Assembly (NCBI GenBank): GCA_023250495.1
Contig: JAHFAP010000012.1
Location: forward strand, 1 to 32,286
Direction of reading: 5' to 3'
Length of the DNA stretch: 32,286 nt
DNA from: Deltaproteobacteria bacterium
Lineage (GTDB): Bacteria; Desulfobacterota; Binatia; UBA9968
Position numbers and translations under genes: made by a program. Below are positions 19,358 to 32,163 of the stretch, in pieces. The notes beneath the pieces are model-generated. The model was given only the letters and a program-made list of their open reading frames with translations. It did no database searches and had not been told where the DNA came from. The stretch's first letter is position 1; each line of letters starts with the position of its first letter.

Positions 19358-19534
19358 ATGGAGACAGAAGAAGCTTTTGAGACCACGTTGGGGGATTTGG
19401 TTGTGGCCCTGACTGAAGAAACCTCCCAGTACGTTCATGACGAGAAAGAAGTTAACAAAGTGGTCGCCTTCAGGCTCACGCACCTTTTGAACCCCGCAGG
19501 CGCCGCTTCGAGACGCTGGCAGTACTGGCAGTAA
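19358..19534 (+). CDS. 58-aa small protein heading the operon; possible RiPP precursor or accessory peptide
   Basis: AAAGGAG SD before METEEAFETTLGDLVVALTEETSQYVHDEKEVNKVVAFRLTHLLNPAGAASRRWQYWQ*; stop is 1 nt from the next ATG. Confidence 0.7.
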   Translation: METEEAFETTLGDLVVALTEETSQYVHDEKEVNKVVAFRLTHLLNPAGAASRRWQYWQ

Positions 19535-19535
19535 A

Positions 19536-21152
19536 ATGATTTCCCTCGAATCTTCGTTCATCAGGACTGCCAAGCGGCGTTGGTTTTCGTTCTGCATGGC
19601 CGACTCTACCGGGAAGGAGTTGACCTATGGGAGAGCGCTCGTAGGTAGCCTGTTGCTGTCCCGGCTGATTCGCAGACACTGCGCGGAAGAGTCCGTGGTT
19701 GGAGTGATGCTCCCCGCGTCCGTAGCCGGAGCGCTGGCCAATATCGCCCTTCTCATTGCAGGGAAGATTCCCGTCAATCTCAACTTCACCGCGGGACGTG
19801 AGGCGCTGGCCTCCGCCGTTCGGCAGTGCGGCATACGGAAGATTCTCACCTCGCGAGCATTTCTGGCCAAGGCGAAAATCGATCCGATAGAGGGGACGTT
19901 ATTCCTCGAAGACATGATAAGGGAGACGAATTCTTTGCGCAAAGCCGTGACAGTCCTGCTCGCTTTTTTGCTGCCCCCACGCCTGCTCCAGAGTTTCTAC
20001 TGCAATCCGAAGCGAGAGCCCGATGCCCTGGCCGCGATCATCTTCTCCAGCGGGACCACAACGACACCCAAGGGCGTGATGCTCAGCCATCATAACATTC
20101 TATCCAACATTGAAGGTCTCACGCAGCTCTTTCGGCTCAGCCGGCGCGACCGGATGATGGCGGCGCTGCCGTTTTTCCACGCCCTCGGATTTACCTGCAA
20201 CCTCTGGTTTCCTCTCCTCTCCGGCATCGGCGTCGCCTACCACTCCAACCCCAAAGACGCCGGCGCCATCGGCGCGATGGTGCTGAAATACCAAGCCACG
20301 ATTCTCATCAGCGCGCCTTCCTTTTATGCGCTCTATACCCAAGGATGCTCACGCCGGGAATTTGCTTCATTACGATACGCCATCGCCGGAGGCGAGAAGT
20401 TACGCGAGCCGATAGCGAAGGGTTTTAGAGAAAAGTTCGGGCGCGCGCTTTTGGAGGGCTACGGCTGCACGGAGATGGGGCCGGTGGTGTCGGTGAACGT
20501 CCCTGGCGGCGGCCAATGCAGCGGGCGTGGGATCGGATGCAAACCCGGCACCGTGGGCCGTCCTCTTCCAGGCGTGGTCGTAGAAGTCGTCGATCCCGGC
20601 AGTTGGAAACCAGTGCCCTGCGGCAAAGAAGGTCTCCTGCTGGTTAACGGGCCCAGCCGGATGCTGGGTTACGTGGGCGTCCCGCAAAAGAGCCAAAAAG
20701 TCATCCGAGACGGCTGGTATGTAACCGGAGATATCGCCTCCGTCGATGAAGACGGCTTTATCCGCATCACGGACCGCGCCTCCCGCTTCAGCAAGATCGG
20801 CGGTGAAATGGTCCCGCACATCAAAGTGGAGGAAACCATCCGCGCCATTCTCGATGAGGGAGACTGCGTGGTGACGGGGGTTGTCGATAAACACAAGGGA
20901 GAACGGCTGGTGGCGTTCTATACGGCGGACGAAATCTCAGTGGCACACTTGTGGGAACGGCTGTGCGAGGCAAGCCTGCCCAAATTGTGGATTCCCAGAA
21001 GAGAGGACCTCTATCCGATCGACGCCCTTCCAACTCTGGCGACGGGAAAGCCCGACCTGACAAGACTCAAATCCCTTGCCCTGGAAAGGCAATCGCACAC
21101 GCAACATGAACACATCCATCGACAGGCTGACAGCGCGCGATGCGCGGCGTGA
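19536..21152 (+). CDS. AMP-binding acyl-ACP/acyl-CoA synthetase (Aas-like)
   Basis: IIFSSGTTTTPKGVMLSHHNI, LEGYGCTEMGPVVSVN and VTGDIASVDEDGFIRITDRASRFSKIGGEMVPHIKVEETI, resembling the Aas acyl-ACP synthetase domain. Confidence 0.9.
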   Translation: MISLESSFIRTAKRRWFSFCMADSTGKELTYGRALVGSLLLSRLIRRHCAEESVVGVMLPASVAGALANIALLIAGKIPVNLNFTAGREALASAVRQCGIRKILTSRAFLAKAKIDPIEGTLFLEDMIRETNSLRKAVTVLLAFLLPPRLLQSFYCNPKREPDALAAIIFSSGTTTTPKGVMLSHHNILSNIEGLTQLFRLSRRDRMMAALPFFHALGFTCNLWFPLLSGIGVAYHSNPKDAGAIGAMVLKYQATILISAPSFYALYTQGCSRREFASLRYAIAGGEKLREPIAKGFREKFGRALLEGYGCTEMGPVVSVNVPGGGQCSGRGIGCKPGTVGRPLPGVVVEVVDPGSWKPVPCGKEGLLLVNGPSRMLGYVGVPQKSQKVIRDGWYVTGDIASVDEDGFIRITDRASRFSKIGGEMVPHIKVEETIRAILDEGDCVVTGVVDKHKGERLVAFYTADEISVAHLWERLCEASLPKLWIPRREDLYPIDALPTLATGKPDLTRLKSLALERQSHTQHEHIHRQADSARCAA

Positions 21153-22245
21153 TCGGCTCTACTTCGCCCAAGTGCGCGAGGATCCGGCGTTGGAGATCCG
21201 CGCGTTAAGGCCGACAGGCGCCGACACGATCGTCGTCGTGAGCTCCGGCGGCTGCACCGCCCTCTCGCTCCTGGCCGCCGGCGCGGGGCGCGTTTTCGCC
21301 GTGGATCTCAACGCCACGCAAAATCACCTGGTGGAGCTGAAGGCTCGAGCCGTGGCCCGCTTATCGCCTGGTGAGGCGGTTCGTTTCCTCGGCGGTGCAT
21401 GGGCACGGGCGAGCGACCGGACTGAGATCTATCTTCGCCTGCGCGCCGAACTCTCGCGCGCCGCGCAAGCTTACTGGAACACCCATCTGAGAGCGATTCG
21501 GCGCGGGGTGATTGACGCCGGGGTCACTGAAAGCTTGATTGCCCGGATCGTGCGCGCGATCCGCCTGGCCGTCCACGCTCCCTCGCGCATCGCGCGATTG
21601 CTCGCTTGTCGCGGCCTTGAGGAACAGCGCGAGTTCTACGCCCGCGAGTGGAATAGCCGGCGCTGGCGCGCCCTGTTTTCGATCCTGCTGAACCGCGCGG
21701 TCTTCAATCGAACCTACAACCCCGCTTTCTTTCGGCATGTGGGGAATATCGACTTCGCCCGGCATTTTTACCGGCTCGCGGAACACACGCTGACCGAACT
21801 CCCGGTCCGAAATAACTATTTTCTCCACCAGATGCTCACCGGCTTCTACCCTACCGGTGCGCCCGATGGGCTGCCCCTGTACCTGAGCGAGGCGGGAGCG
21901 GGTCGGATCTCCTCGACGCGCGACCGGCTTACCCTCGTGGACGGCAGCTATGAGAACTTTCTTCGCAGCCGTCCCGCTCGGAGCGTGAGCGGCTTCGCCC
22001 TTTCCAACATCTGTGAATGGCTTTCTCCCGACGAGATCGATGCGCTGTTTGGCGAGATTGCGCGCACCGCAGCGCCGGGCGCTCGGCTATGCTTTCGTAA
22101 CTTCGTCGGTTGGACCGAAGTCCCGGCGCGATGGCGCAAAGTCATTGTGGAAGATCCTGAGCAGGGCGCAGCTCTGATCCGGACCGACCGGAGCATGATG
22201 CAGAGCCGCCTCGCGGTCTGCGCCGTTGAAGGAGAGCTTTCATGA
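21106..22245 (+). CDS. BtaA-like (DUF3419) S-adenosylmethionine 3-amino-3-carboxypropyl transferase
   Basis: TIVVVSSGGCTALSLLAAGAGRVFAVDLNATQNHLVELK, PAFFRHVGNIDFARHFYRLAEHTLTELPVRNNYFLHQML and GFALSNICEWLSPDEIDALF, typical of the BtaA/DUF3419 fold. Confidence 0.8.
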   Translation: MNTSIDRLTARDARRDRLYFAQVREDPALEIRALRPTGADTIVVVSSGGCTALSLLAAGAGRVFAVDLNATQNHLVELKARAVARLSPGEAVRFLGGAWARASDRTEIYLRLRAELSRAAQAYWNTHLRAIRRGVIDAGVTESLIARIVRAIRLAVHAPSRIARLLACRGLEEQREFYAREWNSRRWRALFSILLNRAVFNRTYNPAFFRHVGNIDFARHFYRLAEHTLTELPVRNNYFLHQMLTGFYPTGAPDGLPLYLSEAGAGRISSTRDRLTLVDGSYENFLRSRPARSVSGFALSNICEWLSPDEIDALFGEIARTAAPGARLCFRNFVGWTEVPARWRKVIVEDPEQGAALIRTDRSMMQSRLAVCAVEGELS

Positions 22246-23372
22246 CCAGCAGGAAGCCCTGCTCGTCCGCCCGGCGAGTGCGCGACGCGATCACGGCGGA
22301 CAACGATCAACTCCTTTGTCTCGCAAAACTCTGTCCGATGGAGGGCCACGTAGCGATTTGCGTGAACCGCGCGCCCGATTTCTTCGCCTTAAACCGTCTG
22401 GAAGGAGACCGCTGGCGGGTCGGAGTTGTGGACGGCCCTGCCGGAACCATCGCCGGCTGCATCGCGGTGGCCGAGCGCAACGTTTATCTTGATGGCCGGC
22501 CGGCGCGGGTCATGTACGTCAGCGATCTCAAGGTCCATCCGGCGCATCGGGATGGATGGACAGGCAACGCCCTGATTCGCTATGCGCAGGAGGCGTGCCG
22601 CAGAGCGGGCGGAGACGACGCGCCGATCCTCTCGACGATACTGGCGAATAACCAGCCGATGGAGCGCCGGATCTATGGTCCTCGCGGACTTCCGCGGCTT
22701 ACCCGCTTCGCCACCATACGCACCTACTCGGTGCCGCTGCTATGGCGCCGCCCTCGGGCCGGCGCCGATCTCCGCGTCTCGCGCGCCAAGACGGATGACA
22801 TCGAGGAGATGGCCGCGCTTTGGCGGCGCCTGGGGCCGTCCCGCCAGTTTGCGCCGGTGCACGATGGAAAATCGTTCGCTGAGTGGATCGACCGAGCGCC
22901 TTCCCTGAGCCCCTCTTGCTACTGGTTGGCGCGCCGCGACAACGGGCGGCTGGCGGGCTTCGTCGGCCTGTGGGATCAGACGGCGTTCAAACAGTTGCGC
23001 GTCACCGGCTACTCCGCCAGGCTTGCCGCATTCCGGGCTCTGTTTAACGCGCTCGCGCCCGCCCTCCACGTGCCCGCGCTTCCCCCTCCCGGCGGCGAGC
23101 TTCGCCACCTGACCGCAATCCACATGTGCGTTTCGGCCGACGAGCCGGCCGTTCTCCGCTCTCTTCTGGTTCACGCTTACAACGAACTCAGAGGCTGCGG
23201 TTTTTCTTTTTTCAACGTCGGCCTGGATATCCGCGATCCGCTCGCCGCCGCCCTCAAAGGCCTCCTGGCCCAGGTCACCGACACTCATGCCTACGTTACG
23301 ACCCCGGCGGGCTGCTACAGCGGCCCGGCGCTGGACCATCGGCCGCTCCACTACGAGATCGCTCTTGTGTGA
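22242..23372 (+). CDS. Tandem GNAT-fold acyltransferase-like protein
   Basis: N-terminal half YVSDLKVHPAHRDGWTGNALIRYAQE (GNAT motif A-like); second half shows GNAT-like spacing; 4-bp overlap with upstream gene. Confidence 0.7.
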   Translation: MTSRKPCSSARRVRDAITADNDQLLCLAKLCPMEGHVAICVNRAPDFFALNRLEGDRWRVGVVDGPAGTIAGCIAVAERNVYLDGRPARVMYVSDLKVHPAHRDGWTGNALIRYAQEACRRAGGDDAPILSTILANNQPMERRIYGPRGLPRLTRFATIRTYSVPLLWRRPRAGADLRVSRAKTDDIEEMAALWRRLGPSRQFAPVHDGKSFAEWIDRAPSLSPSCYWLARRDNGRLAGFVGLWDQTAFKQLRVTGYSARLAAFRALFNALAPALHVPALPPPGGELRHLTAIHMCVSADEPAVLRSLLVHAYNELRGCGFSFFNVGLDIRDPLAAALKGLLAQVTDTHAYVTTPAGCYSGPALDHRPLHYEIALV

Positions 23373-23380
23373 GGTGACGA

Positions 23381-24385
23381 ATGAACCATCGGAAAATAGG
23401 TAAACTGGGATATTCGCTGCGCTTGTATGGGAAACTCCGCGCCGCAAACAAGCGATACTCCGCGAGCGGCGACATGGCGGCGCATCCGTTTCCAGGGGTG
23501 ATTCAGCTCCAGACCATCAATGCCTGCCAGGCAGCGTGCAAGATGTGCCCGTATCCGATCTTCAAGGACGTTTTTGCGCGCGGCCGCATGGACGACGAGC
23601 TGTTCAACAAGGTGATGCAGGAGATCGCGCAGCATAAGGAAGTCGATACGTTCGTCCCGATGCTCCAGAACGAGCCGTTTCTGGACAAACACATCTTCGA
23701 GAAGATCCGCACATTCAAGGAGACGACGCAGGGAAGGGTGACGGTGGAGCTCGTCACCAACGGCGCATTCCTGACTGAAGAGAACATCGAGCGGATTCGC
23801 GACAGCGGTCTCGACATCCTCGACATCAGCCTCGACGCCCTCAGCCGGGAAATTTACCAAAAGATTCGCATCGGGCTTAAGTACGAGACCGTGCTGGCCG
23901 GCGTGGAGAGGGTCCTGGACGCGAACCTGCCCAAGACGGCCGTCTTCGTGCGCCTCGTGCGCATGCGCGACAACCTGCATGAGGTGAAGCCGTTCACGCG
24001 CCATTGGCGGAAACGGGGCGCGTCGGTGTTCATTTACACGGCGAACAATCGAGTCGGCGCGCTGGACGAGTTTGACGAGAACCTCCACCTCCCCAACTCG
24101 GAGCTGTCGCCCTTTTACCGCATGGGTCGGCGGCTCTTCCGGGCGTGGATGGGGCACTGCCCGATCCCGTTCTCCACCGCCAACATCCTGCACAACGGGG
24201 ACGTGCTCATGTGCGTGCACGACTGGGCGCGCAAGGAAATCGTCGGGAACGTGCGCGAAGCGTCGCTGGCCGAGATCTGGAACGGCGAGCGGATGCGCGA
24301 GGTCCGGCGTCTCGTCAGCCGGCGCCAGTACGAGCAGCTGCCGGCCTGCCGTGACTGCTCACTGTGGAAAGATGGTTGGTTTTAA
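23381..24385 (+). CDS. Radical SAM protein with C-terminal SPASM/twitch-like cysteine region
   Basis: CQAACKMC (CxxxCxxC); C-terminal GDVLMCVHDWARKEIVGNVREASLAEIWNGERMREVRR...LPACRDCSLW. Confidence 0.92.
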   Translation: MNHRKIGKLGYSLRLYGKLRAANKRYSASGDMAAHPFPGVIQLQTINACQAACKMCPYPIFKDVFARGRMDDELFNKVMQEIAQHKEVDTFVPMLQNEPFLDKHIFEKIRTFKETTQGRVTVELVTNGAFLTEENIERIRDSGLDILDISLDALSREIYQKIRIGLKYETVLAGVERVLDANLPKTAVFVRLVRMRDNLHEVKPFTRHWRKRGASVFIYTANNRVGALDEFDENLHLPNSELSPFYRMGRRLFRAWMGHCPIPFSTANILHNGDVLMCVHDWARKEIVGNVREASLAEIWNGERMREVRRLVSRRQYEQLPACRDCSLWKDGWF

Positions 24386-26654
24386 AACAGACATAGCCCG
24401 GACAGTCGTCCGCCACCGGGGCTGGATCGCCGTCGCATGGCTGATAGCTTGCGCGGCGCTGCTTTCCGCCACCGGCCGGCTCGATCAGGCTTTGGATGTT
24501 TCGGCCCGAATCGACGGCAGTGAGGCGGCCCAGGTGGAGAGCCTGCTGGCAACCCGCTTCTATTCTCCTTTTGCCTACTACGCCGTCCTCGTTGTGGCAG
24601 GCGTGCCTTCACCCGATAGCGGTGAAGGAGCCCGGCTGCTTGAACAGGTTGTGACTGTGATAAACGGCGTGCCCGGCGTAACCCGCAGCTTTTCCTATTT
24701 GGATATATCCGACACGCTCTTCTTGGCGTCCGGCGCCCCTGGAACGTTTGTCGTTGTCGGCCTGGACCCAAAAAACGGGCCTCTGGATGTGCTCATCCCG
24801 CGACTGCGCGCGGCAACGGAGCCCTTGCAAAATCGCCTGCGCCAAGCGTTCCCGGACGTAGCGTTACGCTGGACGGGCGACGCGGCCCTCAACTCCGACC
24901 TTCGACGCACCAGCACAGAAGAGGCGCGCGCCGCGGAGCAGCGGGTGCTGCCCGTCACTATCGCGCTCTTGCTCCTGGCTTTCGGCGCCGTCGCTGCCGC
25001 CATCCTGCCGGTCCTTACCGGTGTTCTCGCCATCGTGATCGCTCTAGGCGCGGCTGTTCTTCTCGCCGAACGGTGGCCGCTGTCGATACTCCTGGTCAAC
25101 GTGGTTTCGATGATCGGCCTGGGTCTCGGCATCGACTACGCGCTGCTCACCGTGAGCCGTTTTCGTGAGTCCTTGAGCGCCGGTCCTATTGCGGCTGCGG
25201 AGGAGGCGGCGCGCCACGCCGGTCACACGGTCCTCTTGTCCGGCGCGGCGGTGGCAATCGGATTCGCGGCGCTTCTTATCGTGCCGGTCAACGAGCTGCG
25301 GTCGGTCGCCGTCGGCGGGTTGCTCGTCGTCGTCGCGTCAGTTGCTCTCGCCGCCACCCTGCTGCCTGCGCTCCTGGCTTGGGTGGGAAGATGGATTGAC
25401 GCCGGCAGGCTCAAATACCTGCCGCCTTGGCGATTGTCGGAGAAGCGGTGGCGGAGTTGGGGAGACCGAGTGGCAAAAAATCCGAAGCTGATTCTCCTCT
25501 TGGCCGGCACGCCGGTCTTGCTCCTGGCCCTGCAGGCGCCGCGCATGAACACCGCGATCCCTCGGGGCAACTGGCTCCCGCCGCGAATGGAATCCGCTCG
25601 CGCCGTGCGCGACCTTGAGGCGATGGGACGGGGCGGCATCATACAAACCACCCGTATCGTCGTCGAGTTCCCGGCTGGAACGACAGTATTGCAGCCCGAA
25701 GGATGGGCCGCGACCTGGCGGCTGATCGACTCGCTCGCCGCCGATCCCCACGTCACCCAGGTCCGTTTTCTCCCCGGGGCCACGAAGGGCCCAGGCCCGA
25801 ACCCCATACTCTTATCTCTCCTGCCGCGCGATGTCCGGCGCTCTTTCATCACCGACGACGGCCGCGCGGCGCTCGTGGAAGTTATTCCCCGGCAGAATGT
25901 CGAGCCCAACGAGCTGACGCAGTGGGTGCGAAAGCTCCGCACCGCCGATCCCGCCTTGCTGACGGGACTCGGCGGCGTCAAGCTTCGCGTCGGCGGGTTG
26001 CCGGCGTTTAACGCCGACTACGAGGATGCCGTCGCCGGCCGCTTCAGCGGGATCGTTTTATTGATCGTGCTAGGAACGCTGGCGGCGCTGTCGGTTGGAT
26101 TTCGCTCCGTTCTCATCCCAATAAAAGCCGTGGCCCTAAACTTACTCTCCGTCGCCGCCGCGTTCGGCGCTCTCGTGTTAGTGTTTCAGGACGGATACGG
26201 CGCTGGATGGATGGGAATCGCCGGCCCGACCGATGGCGTGTTCCCGGCCGTGCCGATCCTCGTCTTTTGCACGGTCTTCGGCCTGAGCATGGACTACGAG
26301 GTGTTCTTCGTCGCCCGAGTGGCGGAGGCGCGGCGCGCCGGTATGGACGAGGCGGACGCGTTGAAAGAAGGTTTGGCCAAAACAGCAGGGGTCATTACCA
26401 GCGCGGCCGCGATCATGATCGCCGTGTTCGCCGCCTTTGCCCTGGGCGATTTTCTCCTCATCAAAATGCTCGGTTTCGCGCTGGCCACCGCCGTGTTTCT
26501 CGATGCGACCGTCGTAAGGATTGCGATCGGCCCGGCTCTCCTGCGCTTGGCGGGACGCTGGAATTGGTGGCCCGGCGATGCCGACGGAATCTCGATTGCC
26601 GACCGAAAACGCGTAGAGCCTGGCGAAGAGAGAGGCCTCAGCCTGCATGACTAA
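24372..26654 (+). CDS. MMPL/RND-family lipid or metabolite transporter
   Basis: MVGFKTDIARTVVRHRGWIAVAWL; two TM blocks with GLGLGIDYALLTVSRFRE and VFGLSMDYEVFFVARVAEA signatures. Confidence 0.93.
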   Translation: MVGFKTDIARTVVRHRGWIAVAWLIACAALLSATGRLDQALDVSARIDGSEAAQVESLLATRFYSPFAYYAVLVVAGVPSPDSGEGARLLEQVVTVINGVPGVTRSFSYLDISDTLFLASGAPGTFVVVGLDPKNGPLDVLIPRLRAATEPLQNRLRQAFPDVALRWTGDAALNSDLRRTSTEEARAAEQRVLPVTIALLLLAFGAVAAAILPVLTGVLAIVIALGAAVLLAERWPLSILLVNVVSMIGLGLGIDYALLTVSRFRESLSAGPIAAAEEAARHAGHTVLLSGAAVAIGFAALLIVPVNELRSVAVGGLLVVVASVALAATLLPALLAWVGRWIDAGRLKYLPPWRLSEKRWRSWGDRVAKNPKLILLLAGTPVLLLALQAPRMNTAIPRGNWLPPRMESARAVRDLEAMGRGGIIQTTRIVVEFPAGTTVLQPEGWAATWRLIDSLAADPHVTQVRFLPGATKGPGPNPILLSLLPRDVRRSFITDDGRAALVEVIPRQNVEPNELTQWVRKLRTADPALLTGLGGVKLRVGGLPAFNADYEDAVAGRFSGIVLLIVLGTLAALSVGFRSVLIPIKAVALNLLSVAAAFGALVLVFQDGYGAGWMGIAGPTDGVFPAVPILVFCTVFGLSMDYEVFFVARVAEARRAGMDEADALKEGLAKTAGVITSAAAIMIAVFAAFALGDFLLIKMLGFALATAVFLDATVVRIAIGPALLRLAGRWNWWPGDADGISIADRKRVEPGEERGLSLHD

Positions 26655-27600
26655 CGTATTTGTCAACCACTGGTCGTACGCCCTGGGCGACGAGGCCTAC
26701 ACGGTCGAGGAAGCGGCGGCAATGGGAAGAATCCGCTCCAGCGCGGCGGCTTTGAAAGAGGCGGGCTTTGCGCGGCACCGCGTCTGCCGGCCGCACACCA
26801 CCGCCTATGACCTGGCGCGCCGAGCTGTCGAGAAGATCCGGGGGCGCCTGGGCGACGTCGGCGCCATCGTCTATGCGACCTGCATCCCGTGCAACGCCAA
26901 TATCGGAGAAGAAAAAAAGTTCCGCGAGACCGGCGACGTGAAGCATCTCATGGATTTTCCGGCCGGCCACTTGCAGCGCGATTTCGGCCTGGAGCGGGCG
27001 ACCGCGATCGGCATCAACCAGCAAGCCTGCACGGGAATGCTCGGTTCCCTGCGCCTGGCGAGGACGCTTTTGATCGCGGAGCCCGAGATCCGACGGGTGC
27101 TCTGTGTGACCGCGGACCGGTTTCCGGCAGGCGCCTCGTATGAGCAGTCGTATAATCTCATCTCCGAGGGCGCCGCGGCCTGCGTGGTTTCTGCCGAGCC
27201 TACGGGTTTTCAACTGATCGCTTGGCACGGAATCGCGAACGGGAGTCTCGCCATGGCCTCCGATGATGAGGTGATCGGCAGCTATTTCACTTACACTCAT
27301 CGGCTGATTGGCGAAGCCTTGGCAAAGGCGGGACTGCAGATGAACGACATCCGCTGGATCGTGCCGCAGAATATCAACGTCAAGGCCTGGCGGATTATTT
27401 CCCGCCTCCTCGAATTTTCTTTCGAGCAAGTCTATTTCCCGACGTTGGGAGAGGTCGGCCATGTGATCAGCGCCGATAACATCATCAACCTCAAACGGCT
27501 GGTGGAAGAAGGAAAGATTCAGCCGGGCGAGCGCGCGCTGCTGGTGATGGCGGGCTACGGCCTGAATTGGCAATGCGTGATTCTGGAACGGAGGTCTTAG
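26647..27600 (+). CDS. Ketoacyl synthase III-like (thiolase fold) enzyme with altered triad
   Basis: GINQQACTGMLGSLRLA (Cys); IVPQNIN where FabH has IPHQAN; EVGHVISAD where FabH has RYGNTSAAS. Confidence 0.85.
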   Translation: MTNVFVNHWSYALGDEAYTVEEAAAMGRIRSSAAALKEAGFARHRVCRPHTTAYDLARRAVEKIRGRLGDVGAIVYATCIPCNANIGEEKKFRETGDVKHLMDFPAGHLQRDFGLERATAIGINQQACTGMLGSLRLARTLLIAEPEIRRVLCVTADRFPAGASYEQSYNLISEGAAACVVSAEPTGFQLIAWHGIANGSLAMASDDEVIGSYFTYTHRLIGEALAKAGLQMNDIRWIVPQNINVKAWRIISRLLEFSFEQVYFPTLGEVGHVISADNIINLKRLVEEGKIQPGERALLVMAGYGLNWQCVILERRS

Positions 27601-27602
27601 AG

Positions 27603-28466
27603 ATGGGCGGGTTGTCGAAAACGATCGAGCGGCTGTGTGAGGTCTCGAAAAACGACTACAACAACCCGTACCCCTATCTCCAAGCGTGGCCTCGTACGCT
27701 CGATCCTGAACAATGGTTTGCCAGCCCGGAACTCATCTCGCTCTATGAGACGCCGGAGTACGAGCGGTTATCCGACGCTCGGAAACAGCGCCTGAGCCTC
27801 TATGAAGCGGTCAACTTCTTTAGCCTCAACATCCATGGAGAGAAGTCGCTCGTCGAAGGCCTGGCGAAGAGACTCTACGAAAGAGAAAAGGAGGAGATAT
27901 CTCCTTATCTCCATCACTTTCTGGACGAGGAAAACAAGCACATGATCTATTTCGCCGAATTCTGCATAAGATATGCGGGCAAAATCTATCCTGACAAGAA
28001 AGTGGTTTTTCCGCGCGACTATGAATCGGGAGAGGAGGATTTCCTATTTTTTGCCAAGGTTCTGATCTTCGAAGAGATCGTGGATGTTTACAACGTAAGA
28101 ATGTCCATGGACGAAACTCTGGCGCCCGTGGCCCGCCAAATCAACGCCCTTCACCACCGGGATGAAGCGCGCCATCTGGTGTTCGGCCGCCGGCTGGTGA
28201 CGGACCTCTTCCATCGCTACTCGCCGATGTGGTCGGCCGAGACGCTTGAGGGCGTGCGCGCTTATCTCAAGGACTACTTCGTCGCCACCTGGAGCGAGTA
28301 CTACAACCCGCTGGTTTATCAGGACGCCGGGCTGGACGATCCATGGGAGCTTCGAGAGAAGGCATTTCGATCCCCCTCAGGCCGACGGCGGAGAAAGAAG
28401 ATCGCGGCGGGATGCGTCCGCTACCTTTTGGACAACGGCATATTGACGGAGGAGCCTCCTTTATGA
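27603..28466 (+). CDS. AurF/CmlI-type diiron oxygenase (p-aminobenzoate N-oxygenase family)
   Basis: Diiron ligand pattern E (NIHGEKS), ExxH (DEENKHM), E (IFEEIVDVYN), HxxxExxH (LHHRDEARHLVFG). Confidence 0.85.
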   Translation: MGGLSKTIERLCEVSKNDYNNPYPYLQAWPRTLDPEQWFASPELISLYETPEYERLSDARKQRLSLYEAVNFFSLNIHGEKSLVEGLAKRLYEREKEEISPYLHHFLDEENKHMIYFAEFCIRYAGKIYPDKKVVFPRDYESGEEDFLFFAKVLIFEEIVDVYNVRMSMDETLAPVARQINALHHRDEARHLVFGRRLVTDLFHRYSPMWSAETLEGVRAYLKDYFVATWSEYYNPLVYQDAGLDDPWELREKAFRSPSGRRRRKKIAAGCVRYLLDNGILTEEPPL

Positions 28467-28726
28467 AAACCGGGACGGAAATTCGCCGGGCGCTGCGGGA
28501 TTGGGTGATTCGGACCAACGGGAAGATCGAGCCCGAAGAGCTGGACGACGAGACCCCGATCATAGAGCAGAGGATCGTTTCCTCGCTTCAGATCATGGAC
28601 CTGATTCTATTTCTGGAAAAGCTCAGCGGCAAGCCGATTGAAGTAGAGAAGCTCAAGCCCGGTGTTTTTCGCAACATCGGCGTCATCCACCGCAACTTTT
28701 TTGAGGAGCCGTCTCATGAACGCTAA
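28463..28726 (+). CDS. Acyl/aminoacyl carrier protein (ACP1)
   Basis: 87 aa; phosphopantetheine-site-like IVSSLQIMDLILFLEKLSG; overlaps both neighbours. Confidence 0.82.
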   Translation: MKTGTEIRRALRDWVIRTNGKIEPEELDDETPIIEQRIVSSLQIMDLILFLEKLSGKPIEVEKLKPGVFRNIGVIHRNFFEEPSHER

Positions 28727-29582
28727 GCGCGCGGACGATCTGGAAAAGGTTCCAGGCTACCGGTGGCACGCAAACGGCCAGTCCGCTTTCAGCGGAGAGC
28801 TGTTGGGGCTTTACCAGAGACTCGACCGGCTCTTTTTCGGCTGGGCCAGGGAGTATGATGCCGCGGAGTATGCCTTTCCGACATTTATTCCCGCGCGGGA
28901 ACTGGATAAAGTGGATTATTTCCGCTCGTTCCCTCATCTGGCGACGTTTCCGGTCGCGCTGGACGGGAGCGAGGAAAATCTCCGGGCGTTTGCCGGCCGT
29001 GGTCCGTTGAGCGCGGAGGGGAACGTCCGATTGACCGCCCCCGCGCCCATTCGGGACGTCATCACGCCGGCGGCCTGCTATCACTTTTACGTCCAATTCC
29101 AGGGTGAAACACTCACGGCGCCCAGAGTCGTCACGACTCGGGCGACCTGTTGTCGTAGAGAGTCCCATTATCTGCCGCTACAGCGTCAATGGATTTTCTC
29201 GATGCGCGAGATCGTCTGCCTCGGCACGGCGGACGAAGTGAAAGAGTTTCTGACGGCCTGTCAGGAGCGGGTGGATCGTTTCTTTAAGAGGGTTCATCTC
29301 CCCGTCCAATGGAACGCCGCGACGGACCCATTTTTCAATCCCTCGCGCAATCCCAAATATCTTCTTCAGCAACTCGATCCGGTCAAGACGGAAATGGTGT
29401 TTCAAGATCTGGCCATCGGCTCGGTCAATTTTCACCGCAACTACTTCGGCGAGGCCTTTGACATTCAGCGCGCAGGCAAAGAGGCTTTTTCCGGGTGCGT
29501 GGCCTTCGGCATCGAGAGGTGGATCTTTGCGTTGCTGACCCACTTTGGACCGGACCGGGCCGACTGGCCCGATCTCAACTGA
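28716..29582 (+). CDS. Amino acid:[carrier protein] ligase (class II aaRS/atypical SerRS-like)
   Basis: TPAACYHFYVQFQGE, RATCCRRESHYLPLQRQWIFSMREIVCLGTADE and FSGCVAFGIERWIFALLTHFGPD; Cys/Glu/Cys zinc-ligand pattern of atypical SerRS and aa:CP ligases; no tRNA-binding domain. Confidence 0.88.
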   Translation: MNAKRADDLEKVPGYRWHANGQSAFSGELLGLYQRLDRLFFGWAREYDAAEYAFPTFIPARELDKVDYFRSFPHLATFPVALDGSEENLRAFAGRGPLSAEGNVRLTAPAPIRDVITPAACYHFYVQFQGETLTAPRVVTTRATCCRRESHYLPLQRQWIFSMREIVCLGTADEVKEFLTACQERVDRFFKRVHLPVQWNAATDPFFNPSRNPKYLLQQLDPVKTEMVFQDLAIGSVNFHRNYFGEAFDIQRAGKEAFSGCVAFGIERWIFALLTHFGPDRADWPDLN

Positions 29583-29595
29583 GGGAACAAGCGCC

Positions 29596-30705
29596 ATGGC
29601 AGCCAAGCAAGTCCTCATTACCGGAGCGGACGGATACCTGGGATTTCGGCTGGCGCGAAAGCATCTTGAGCTGACCCAGGACCGCGTACTACTGTGGATA
29701 CGGGCAAGCACCGAGGATGCCTTCCGCATGAAAAGAGAAAATCTCGCCCGTCGACTTTCCGCCTTTGAAGGACGGGTGAGCTATCGGGCGGGAGATCTGA
29801 CGGCGCAAAATCCGTTCGATGCCGTCGATCCGAAAAACATTCGAAGCATCATTCACGCGGCCGCCGTGACCCGTTTCAATGTGGATGGCGCAACCGCCCG
29901 ACAGGTCAATATCGGAGGCGCCGAAAAGGTCTTCGATTTCGCCGCCCGCTGTCCGGCGCTGGAAGGGCTGGGGTTGTTAAGCACGGTGTACGCCTCAGGC
30001 CTGAAAACCGGAATGATCCAAGAGACGCCGTTAGGCGATCACGAGGGCTTCTCGAACCATTACGAGCGGTCAAAATGGGAGTCCGAGACCGTTCTCATCA
30101 AAAGATTTGGTCATCTCCCCTGGCGAATTTTTCGGTTGGCAACCGTCATTGCCGACAACGACGACGGCCGCGTCACGCAGCAGAACGCTTTTCATAATAC
30201 GCTCAAGCTATTCTACTACGGTCTGCTTTCTCTCATCCCGGGGAATCCGACAACCCCGCTCTATTTTGTCACCGGCGACTTTGCGACCCGCGCGATCTTC
30301 GATCTGATGCAGTCTCCCTTAAACCGGGCGATCTACCACGTCAGTCACACGAAAGATGAATCTCTGTGCCTGGACGAGCTTATCAACCTCGCCGCCGGCA
30401 CGTTTGAGCAGGACCGCGACTTTAAAACGAGGCGGGTCCTGAAACCGATCTATGCCGATCTAGAAAGCTTCAATCTTTTGGTCGGCGAAGTCAGCGCCTT
30501 CGGCGGGGGCGTTGTGAATCAGGCGATCGGGAGCGTTGCGCCCTTCGCCCGACAGCTTTTCCTCCATAAAGAGATCGGCAATCGCAACCTCGTTTCAGCG
30601 CTGGCCGATTATCATGCTCCGGATCCGCGCCGGCTGGCGCAAAATACCTGCCGATATATGGTCCAGACGAATTGGGGCAAGTCGGTACCGCATGAAAATC
30701 CGTAA
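29596..30705 (+). CDS. Extended SDR / thioester-reductase-like NAD(P)-binding protein
   Basis: VLITGADGYLGFRLARKHL, IIHAAAVTRFNVDG and NHYERSKWESETVL (YxxxK-type motif). Confidence 0.87.
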   Translation: MAAKQVLITGADGYLGFRLARKHLELTQDRVLLWIRASTEDAFRMKRENLARRLSAFEGRVSYRAGDLTAQNPFDAVDPKNIRSIIHAAAVTRFNVDGATARQVNIGGAEKVFDFAARCPALEGLGLLSTVYASGLKTGMIQETPLGDHEGFSNHYERSKWESETVLIKRFGHLPWRIFRLATVIADNDDGRVTQQNAFHNTLKLFYYGLLSLIPGNPTTPLYFVTGDFATRAIFDLMQSPLNRAIYHVSHTKDESLCLDELINLAAGTFEQDRDFKTRRVLKPIYADLESFNLLVGEVSAFGGGVVNQAIGSVAPFARQLFLHKEIGNRNLVSALADYHAPDPRRLAQNTCRYMVQTNWGKSVPHENP

Positions 30706-31324
30706 AACGGTTCTGGAGAGGAACCTGCAAAGAGAGTTTCGCCTGCGGTTGAGGCTGGCTATCGCAAGGGAGTCTATCCAGGTGGGGAAGTTGACGCCCA
30801 TGGAGTTAGCCCGTTTCCGGGAGATGAAGTCGGGTCCGCGACGGGATTCTTGGTTGAAAGGGAGATCGGCTCTCAAGCGTTTGTTGGCCGGCTTTGGCGA
30901 GGGAGAGGAGACCTCGCATATCCTGTTTCCCAACAGCCGATTTTCTTTGACCCACAGCGGAGATTACGCCGCGGCCGTGGGAACCGACCGGGCGCGGCTG
31001 CGGGGCGTCGGCATCGATCTGGAGTTAAACCGGCTGCCGCGCCCTGAAGCGGCGCGTTTTTTTCTCAATGCGGAGGAGCTCAGATGGTGGAAGCGGCTGG
31101 ATCGATCCGTTGGAACTGCCGAGCTCCTTCGTCTCTGGACCGTCAAGGAGGCCCTCTTTAAGTCATATCCGGGCAACCGTGAGATGGGCCTCCTGGATTT
31201 TTATGTGGAAGAACCCGAACAGCGGGGCGGAAGGGCCTTTGTGCGTGGCGAGCCGAGCGCGGAGATCCTGTATTGCTCTTTTCCCCTGATGCAAGGCGCT
31301 CTTTCGGTGGCAATCTTTTCATAG
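30692..31324 (+). CDS. 4'-phosphopantetheinyl transferase (Sfp-type)
   Basis: FSLTHSGDYAAAVG, GVGIDLELN and LLRLWTVKEALFKSYPG. Confidence 0.9.
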   Translation: MKIRKTVLERNLQREFRLRLRLAIARESIQVGKLTPMELARFREMKSGPRRDSWLKGRSALKRLLAGFGEGEETSHILFPNSRFSLTHSGDYAAAVGTDRARLRGVGIDLELNRLPRPEAARFFLNAEELRWWKRLDRSVGTAELLRLWTVKEALFKSYPGNREMGLLDFYVEEPEQRGGRAFVRGEPSAEILYCSFPLMQGALSVAIFS

Positions 31325-31337
31325 AGGAGGTGGACGC

Positions 31338-31922
31338 GTGCTCAACGAAAACGAACTCTGGCTCCTCAGCTTCTATCGCACCTCAGAGATCAGCGGGTCG
31401 CTGTTCTTCGGCCGATTGGCCCGGTCGATGAAACCCGGCCCGATCCAGCGCGACATGACCAAACATTTTGCCGACGAGGCCCTGCACGCCTGGTATTGGA
31501 CCTCTTGCATCGAGAAACTTGGCGCCCAGCCCCTCAAACTCACAGAAGCGTACCAGGACCAGTACCTCGTCGCCGCCGGCATGCCGGCGAACCTGATGGA
31601 AGTCCTCGCGATCACGCAGATCTTTGAAAAGCGCGTCATCAATGAATATGCGCGACACAGTCGGATCCCCGACGTGGATCCGGTAGTCAGAGAGACTTTG
31701 GACAAAATCACGGCCGACGAAAGATGGCACATCGAATGGGTGCGCAAGGCTTTAGGGACCATGGAGGCGGATTACGGAAAGGAGCTGATCGAAAAAACCC
31801 TCAAGCGGTTTTGGCAAGCCGATCGGCAAGTTTACTCGAAGACGATGAAGGAACATGAGGAGAGGGTCCAATACCTCTTGAACAAGAGGTCAATCTCCAA
31901 GGAGTCGCAAAAAAATGGATAG
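31338..31922 (+). CDS. Ferritin-like diiron protein (GTG start)
   Basis: GGAGG SD then GTG; E (RTSEISG), ExxH (ADEALHAWYW), E (IFEKRVINEY), ExxH (ADERWHIEWV) four-helix diiron pattern. Confidence 0.82.
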   Translation: MLNENELWLLSFYRTSEISGSLFFGRLARSMKPGPIQRDMTKHFADEALHAWYWTSCIEKLGAQPLKLTEAYQDQYLVAAGMPANLMEVLAITQIFEKRVINEYARHSRIPDVDPVVRETLDKITADERWHIEWVRKALGTMEADYGKELIEKTLKRFWQADRQVYSKTMKEHEERVQYLLNKRSISKESQKNG

Positions 31923-32163
31923 AGACGCTGTGAAGATAAAAATAGCCAGCCTCTTGAGGCAACCGCCGGCGACGCTAAGGGATGAAACAGCGCTGACCGA
32001 TCTGGCCACGGACTCCTTCGCCCTGGTGGAGATTGTCATCGAGCTGCAAGAGGAACTCGGCGTGCGCTTGGTCCAAGAAGATTTGAAAGATGTAAAAAGC
32101 GTAGGGGATTTGATTCGGCTATGTTTAAACGCCGGCCATGGTCAAGTTTTCTCGAAAACATAA
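31915..32163 (+). CDS. Acyl carrier protein (ACP2)
   Basis: TDLATDSFALVEIVIELQEELGVRL with DSF phosphopantetheine site. Confidence 0.9.
   Translation: MDRDAVKIKIASLLRQPPATLRDETALTDLATDSFALVEIVIELQEELGVRLVQEDLKDVKSVGDLIRLCLNAGHGQVFSKT

Follow-up and report, generated by a model that had tools for sequence, protein, structure and literature searches.

A freestanding amino acid:[carrier protein] ligase, derived from a class II aminoacyl-tRNA synthetase (aaRS), is encoded beside a carrier protein (ACP1) and an AurF-type diiron N-oxygenase, and the three genes recur together across phyla. We propose that ACP1 and the ligase are the freestanding aminoacyl loading module of an N-oxygenation pathway: the ligase would charge ACP1 and AurF would oxidise the amino nitrogen on the carrier. 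We put the probability of this reading at about 0.7.

The window (the whole stretch of DNA that we analysed, 32,286 nucleotides) is an entire 32-kb contig from an assembly that is 83% complete. The operon lies on the + strand and reaches the contig end, which is 123 bp past the gene for the second carrier protein (ACP2), so it may be truncated there. Scans with Pfam and NCBIfam gave this gene order from 19.5 kb onward:

19536..21152, +: AMP-binding acyl/aryl ligase, at the start of the operon
21076..22245, +: DUF3419 protein, paired with the GNAT protein
22242..23372, +: GNAT-family protein, partner of the DUF3419 protein
23381..24385, +: radical SAM/SPASM protein, a putative pathway member
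24372..26654, +: MMPL-family exporter; export of the product is probable from its family
26647..27600, +: KASIII-like acyltransferase/condensing enzyme
27603..28466, +: AurF-type ferritin-like diiron N-oxygenase (PF11583, E = 2e-35); overlaps ACP1 by 4 bp
28463..28726, +: ACP1, a freestanding type II carrier protein resembling peptidyl carrier proteins; predicted phosphopantetheine site Ser41 (IVSSLQ)
28716..29582, +: amino acid:[carrier protein] ligase of class II aaRS origin
29596..30705, +: freestanding thioester reductase (SDR motifs TGADGYLG and YxxxK; TIGR01746, E = 6e-25; PF07993, E = 3e-28)
30692..31324, +: Sfp-type phosphopantetheinyl transferase (PF01648, E = 3e-11), the presumed activator of ACP1 and ACP2
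31338..31922, +: small ferritin-like diiron protein (E17, E47xxH50, E97, E128xxH131)
31915..32163, +: ACP2, a conventional acyl carrier protein (PF00550, E = 1e-8)

The ligase and its carrier protein

An earlier note on this DNA, made from the sequence alone, had proposed the ligase and ACP1 as a loading module within a biosynthetic operon, and the KASIII, AurF, reductase, phosphopantetheinyl transferase and ACP2 genes alongside bear out that setting. The ligase ORF, which begins with ATG, lies where the note placed it, but it encodes 288 amino acids, not 289. Both of the core motifs that the note had picked out, FSGCVAFGIERW and SMREIVCLGT, are present, and family matches show that they do not arise by chance. 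In a profile scan, the ligase matches NCBIfam PRK07080 ("amino acid--[ACP] ligase") with E = 7e-42. A PDB sequence search found Bll0957 of Bradyrhizobium (3mey, E = 5e-29) across residues 6–285, with methanogen-type seryl-tRNA synthetase (SerRS) far weaker. The AlphaFold model is a single domain with a pLDDT of 94.6, and a Foldseek search with it found 4h2w and 4h2s (E = 1e-25, TM 0.88 and 0.86), and SerRS as a fragment only. The note had regarded assignment to a different HMM family as evidence against its idea; the family matched is PRK07080, though at 143 bits against an equivalog cut-off of 357. Judging by sequence, the ligase is a homologue of the PRK07080 family, not an equivalog of its curated members, and it belongs to a divergent clade of a known family.

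The predicted Cys/Glu/Cys zinc site also held up. After subtraction of a 20-residue tag offset, C121/E165/C261 are equivalent to C131/E176/C279 of Bll0957, which we take to be its zinc ligands. These residues and the motif 2 and motif 3 arginines are invariant across 45 aligned homologues. Like the atypical (methanogen-type) SerRS, the ligase has a zinc-dependent class II catalytic core, but it lacks the tRNA-binding domain, and the TM score is 0.5 when normalised to SerRS. The atypical SerRS profile is matched at positions 211–497 of 518 only, which is why we consider the N-terminal tRNA-binding domain to be absent, as had been claimed. The note had suggested an AlphaFold model as a check on the zinc site and the missing domain, and the single-domain model (TM 0.88 to the Bradyrhizobium Gly:CP ligase) agrees with it. 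A tRNA-acting SerRS was ruled out as the identity of this protein because that domain is missing.

The substrate is less clear. Identity to characterised enzymes is about 30–34%. Since the ligase scores below the equivalog cut-off and falls in a clade apart from the Bradyrhizobium enzymes, carrying their specificity for glycine or alanine over by analogy is only a guess, and the substrate could differ.

The ACP1 ORF was correctly placed in the earlier note; it begins with ATG, encodes 87 amino acids, and overlaps the ligase ORF by 11 bp. ACP1 matched no Pfam family at E = 0.01 but is similar to peptidyl carrier proteins of type II, such as PltL (E = 4e-5), and all 20 homologues compared have Ser41. 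The pairing of ligase and carrier, which the note had thought very likely functional, is conserved: a carrier ORF with the conserved Ser lies between AurF and the ligase in 49 of 49 AurF–ligase loci. The overlap of the carrier and ligase ORFs recurs in most of the 49 (mostly 4–14 bp), and AurF overlaps the carrier by 4 bp in 34 and by 11 bp in 11 (45 of 49 in all).

Coupling of the ligase to AurF

The earlier note missed the partner encoded directly upstream of ACP1, the AurF-type N-oxygenase. It scores 122.5 bits against a PF11583 gathering score of 29.6. Its candidate ligands E76/E118/H121/E165/H192/E196/H199 (numbered by the 295-residue alignment row that starts at 27579) are invariant in an alignment of 28 sequences. 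These are six metal ligands and the seventh His of N-oxygenases, with the first Glu (E76) assigned by invariance rather than from a structure. A His at E-4, four positions ahead of the final Glu, marks the N-oxygenase FDOs (PMC12154687). A PDB sequence search found no close relative of this AurF. Homologues of it in Azospirillum argentinense and Nostoc adjoin NRPS adenylation genes instead, which suggests that the ligase and ACP1 replace an A-PCP; they would be a freestanding equivalent of the A-PCP in NRPSs of the enteromycin/fragin type.

We compared the best 80 of at least 577 relatives of the ligase, from a scan with one genome per species. Among these, AurF lies just upstream of the ligase in 50 of the 54 members of the window's clade and in none of the 27 outside it (Bradyrhizobium-type). 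The AurF-bearing ligases form one part of the tree, which a branch with 100% support sets off from the Bradyrhizobium-type. The four clade members without AurF are L035, whose contig begins within the ligase, L021, L043, and L047. All three context groups together need 6 changes on the ligase tree, versus 36.6 when shuffled. Over 50 loci, AurF distances correlate with ligase distances at r = 0.953 (shuffles reached at most 0.12), and pairs among KASIII, AurF, ligase and reductase give r of 0.85–0.93. Such high correlations show that the module travels as a unit; they do not show that the proteins touch, since common inheritance also gives a high r. The recurrence and the tree rule out a chance neighbourhood of ligase and AurF.

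In one clade member, L043 (7158–12083, a Rhodospirillales MAG), the ligase lies between aconitase and citrate synthase genes, with no AurF. From its gene context, we read this as another role for the ligase family. Phage and plasmid collections held no copy of the KASIII/reductase type ("A-type") at useful identity. An unverified, unannotated 19-kb record of a faecal "Bacteriophage sp." (L093, MT835751) has a distant relative of the ligase (27% identity); the phage label is doubtful.

A five-gene core, KASIII–AurF–ACP1–ligase–thioester reductase, is complete and in order in 30 other loci (among the best 80 of at least 577), and three more fit but are cut by contig ends. The core-bearing loci come from nine named phyla: Nitrospirota, Acidobacteriota, Omnitrophota, Melainabacteria, Pseudomonadota, Fidelibacterota, Bdellovibrionota, Myxococcota and Actinomycetota. 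Many of these A-type relatives are MAG contigs. An MMPL gene also adjoins the core in L008, L016, L020 and L032. Three Obscuribacterales loci (L009, L011, L014) have an extra gene between ligase and reductase, which in L009 (9054–10019) encodes a TPR-repeat protein.

A second type of locus (L038–L055 and plasmid loci) has AurF, carrier and ligase without KASIII or reductase. Its hosts include Streptomyces, Tistrella and Agrobacterium vitis, and a nitronate monooxygenase (PF03060), absent from the window's type, takes the place of KASIII and reductase. This gene is in the same run in 12 of 12 loci of the main Actinomycetota group (one of them on a plasmid), in Tistrella and in A. vitis. AurF–ACP–ligase is the sole segment common to the two types. 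In the Actinomycetota loci (L044–L046, L048–L055 and L085), the order is a protein of unknown function, AurF, carrier, ligase, nitronate monooxygenase, alpha/beta hydrolase, second carrier (not detected in L045) and phosphopantetheinyl transferase; from its gene content, a nitronate- or nitrite-forming pathway is possible. On an A. vitis plasmid (L086, 10803–11186), a protein like fluoroacetyl-CoA thioesterase (FlK) follows AurF–nitronate monooxygenase–ligase.

Proposed pathway and alternatives

We propose that the Sfp-type transferase, going by its family, first makes holo-ACP1. The ligase would then adenylate a small amino acid (glycine or alanine being the likeliest) and hand it to ACP1, on the thiol of its phosphopantetheine arm, instead of to a tRNA; the modelled fold, the zinc site and the partner gene strongly support this step. 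In the resulting aminoacyl-S-ACP1, the amino group is free, and AurF would oxidise it to a hydroxylamine, an oxime or a nitro/nitronate group, a step that the conserved coupling and precedent from other systems support. For example, HamC N-oxidises a tethered valine (PMC11659414), and proposals for akazaoxime, enteromycin and althiomycin have a diiron oxygenase convert glycine on an NRPS carrier to an oxime or nitronate (PMC9967187). Finally, an acyl group may be coupled to the N-oxidised unit by the KASIII-like enzyme, after which the thioester reductase may free the chain as an alcohol or aldehyde. Tailoring of the chain would fall to ACP2 and the small diiron protein, and export of the product to the MMPL protein. 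By these steps, the ligase, ACP1 and the reductase would together act like HamD/PvfC, an A-T-TR NRPS. The nitronate monooxygenase of the sister type speaks for N-oxidation, but the window's type lacks it. Co-conservation of these genes does not prove that AurF acts on an ACP1-bound substrate.

Any role given to KASIII, ACP2, the small diiron protein or the DUF3419–GNAT pair is a guess. In KASIII, Cys128 is retained, but Gln241 replaces the catalytic His and His272 the Asn; all three residues are conserved in 20 homologues, and the GHxxxxD motif aligns with that of DpsC. Because of these features, ordinary decarboxylative condensation seems unlikely, and we would expect non-canonical condensing or acyl-transfer chemistry. 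The reductase has SDR motifs and matches the thioester-reductase (TR) domains of NRPSs. For the small diiron protein, a PDB sequence search found no close relative, and a fold search gave generic ferritin-like matches only, including PaaA/PaaC and aldehyde-deformylating oxygenase.

Among the 30 complete core loci, the reductase is in all 30, the small diiron protein is in 24, DUF3419–GNAT is in 6 (directly downstream of the core in L025, L027, L028, L030, L033 and L034), and none has both of the latter. The window has both, with DUF3419–GNAT upstream (21076–23372) and the small diiron protein downstream (31338–31922), so it either combines two tailoring branches or holds two operons in tandem. 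We rejected the AMP-ligase at 19536 as the counterpart of the AMP-ligases next to the core in related loci: it is 23–32% identical to them, while most of the others share 35–50% or more. By sequence, it is probably a different enzyme. We found no clear counterpart of that core-adjacent AMP-ligase, or of the relatives' ICMT-type methyltransferase, elsewhere in the 83% complete assembly, so they may be encoded past the end of the contig. A 58-aa ORF (19358–19534) that heads the operon has a good ribosome-binding site, but it matches no Pfam family, and none of the fetched loci has a relative of it. Together with the radical SAM/SPASM gene (23381), it could point to a small modified peptide, or to nothing.

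We also considered that ACP1 is loaded as proposed but that aminoacyl-ACP1 is used directly, by condensation or by reduction to an amino-aldehyde, while AurF oxidises a later intermediate or carbon. AurF-like FDOs also perform C-H and hydrazone chemistry (PMC12154687), and since all complete A-type loci have a reductase, the chain could be released directly by reduction. However, this fits poorly with AurF–ACP–ligase being the shared segment of both locus types and with the invariance of the N-oxygenase-specific His, and we consider it improbable. It is also unlikely, in our judgement, that the product is a signal of the diazeniumdiolate or pyrazine-N-oxide type, made by a dispersed form of the ham/pvf pathway. 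The set of functions does match (amino acid activation, carrier, thioester reductase, AurF-like N-oxygenase and a further diiron-type oxygenase), but the cited ham gene list (PMC11659414) has nothing that corresponds to KASIII, ACP2 or MMPL, and the small diiron protein is ferritin-like while HamA is described as a haem-containing oxygenase. Furthermore, the operon has separate proteins for these functions and no multidomain A-T-TR NRPS.

That this is an ordinary aa:CP ligase with the role of the Bradyrhizobium type, incidentally beside AurF in this contig, would explain why it has the fold and catalytic residues of Bll0957, but the recurrence of AurF across phyla, in 50 of 54 clade loci and 0 of 27 Bradyrhizobium-type loci and with r = 0.953, makes this very hard to believe. 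A degenerate SerRS or other tRNA-acting enzyme, or an inactive regulator, is just as far-fetched: the ligase is distantly similar to methanogen SerRS, but its zinc and motif 2/3 residues are all invariant, the tRNA-binding domain is absent, and a carrier gene always adjoins it.

Our proposal for the loading module can be extended, tentatively, to a widely transferred NRPS-free pathway, in which the ligase loads glycine or alanine, AurF N-oxidises it, a KASIII without the His for decarboxylation joins it to an acyl chain, and the reductase releases the product, an N-oxidised lipid of an undescribed class; the nitronate monooxygenase of the sister type would instead free nitrite or modify the nitronate.

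Known systems and significance

Bll0957 (3mey, 4h2s; PRK07080) and the window's ligase share their fold (TM 0.88), their zinc ligands and the class II core motifs; both lack a tRNA-binding domain and have a carrier protein gene in the same operon. In contrast, the window's ligase is about 30–34% identical to Bll0957, is below the equivalog cut-off, belongs to a separate clade, and lies beside AurF, KASIII and thioester reductase genes, with AurF in 0 of 27 Bradyrhizobium-type loci. Compared by description, the fragin/valdiazen system (ham, or pvf; NRPS HamD/PvfC and AurF-like HamC/PvfB) similarly has a carrier-bound amino acid, an AurF-like N-oxygenase and thioester-reductase release. But in the window, separate proteins provide activation, carrier and reductase, activation is by an aaRS-derived ligase instead of an NRPS A domain, and KASIII, ACP2 and MMPL are added. 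For enteromycin, akazaoxime and althiomycin, the proposed pathways likewise have a diiron oxygenase that turns carrier-bound glycine into an oxime or nitronate, but with an NRPS adenylation domain where we find an aa:CP ligase. They resemble the Tistrella sister locus in having an O-methyltransferase.

In the open-access literature that we searched, we did not find the conserved coupling of an aa:CP ligase to an N-oxygenase and a freestanding reductase. According to a 2022 review, the biological role of aa:CP ligases is still unknown (PMC9437257). A ligase clade tied to AurF in nine named phyla, with a carrier gene between the two, offers this family a pathway role that can be tested. If our proposal is correct, then an aaRS fold substitutes for the NRPS adenylation domain in secondary metabolism, and the ligase, ACP1 and AurF would be a short loading and oxidation module for N-oxidised building blocks.
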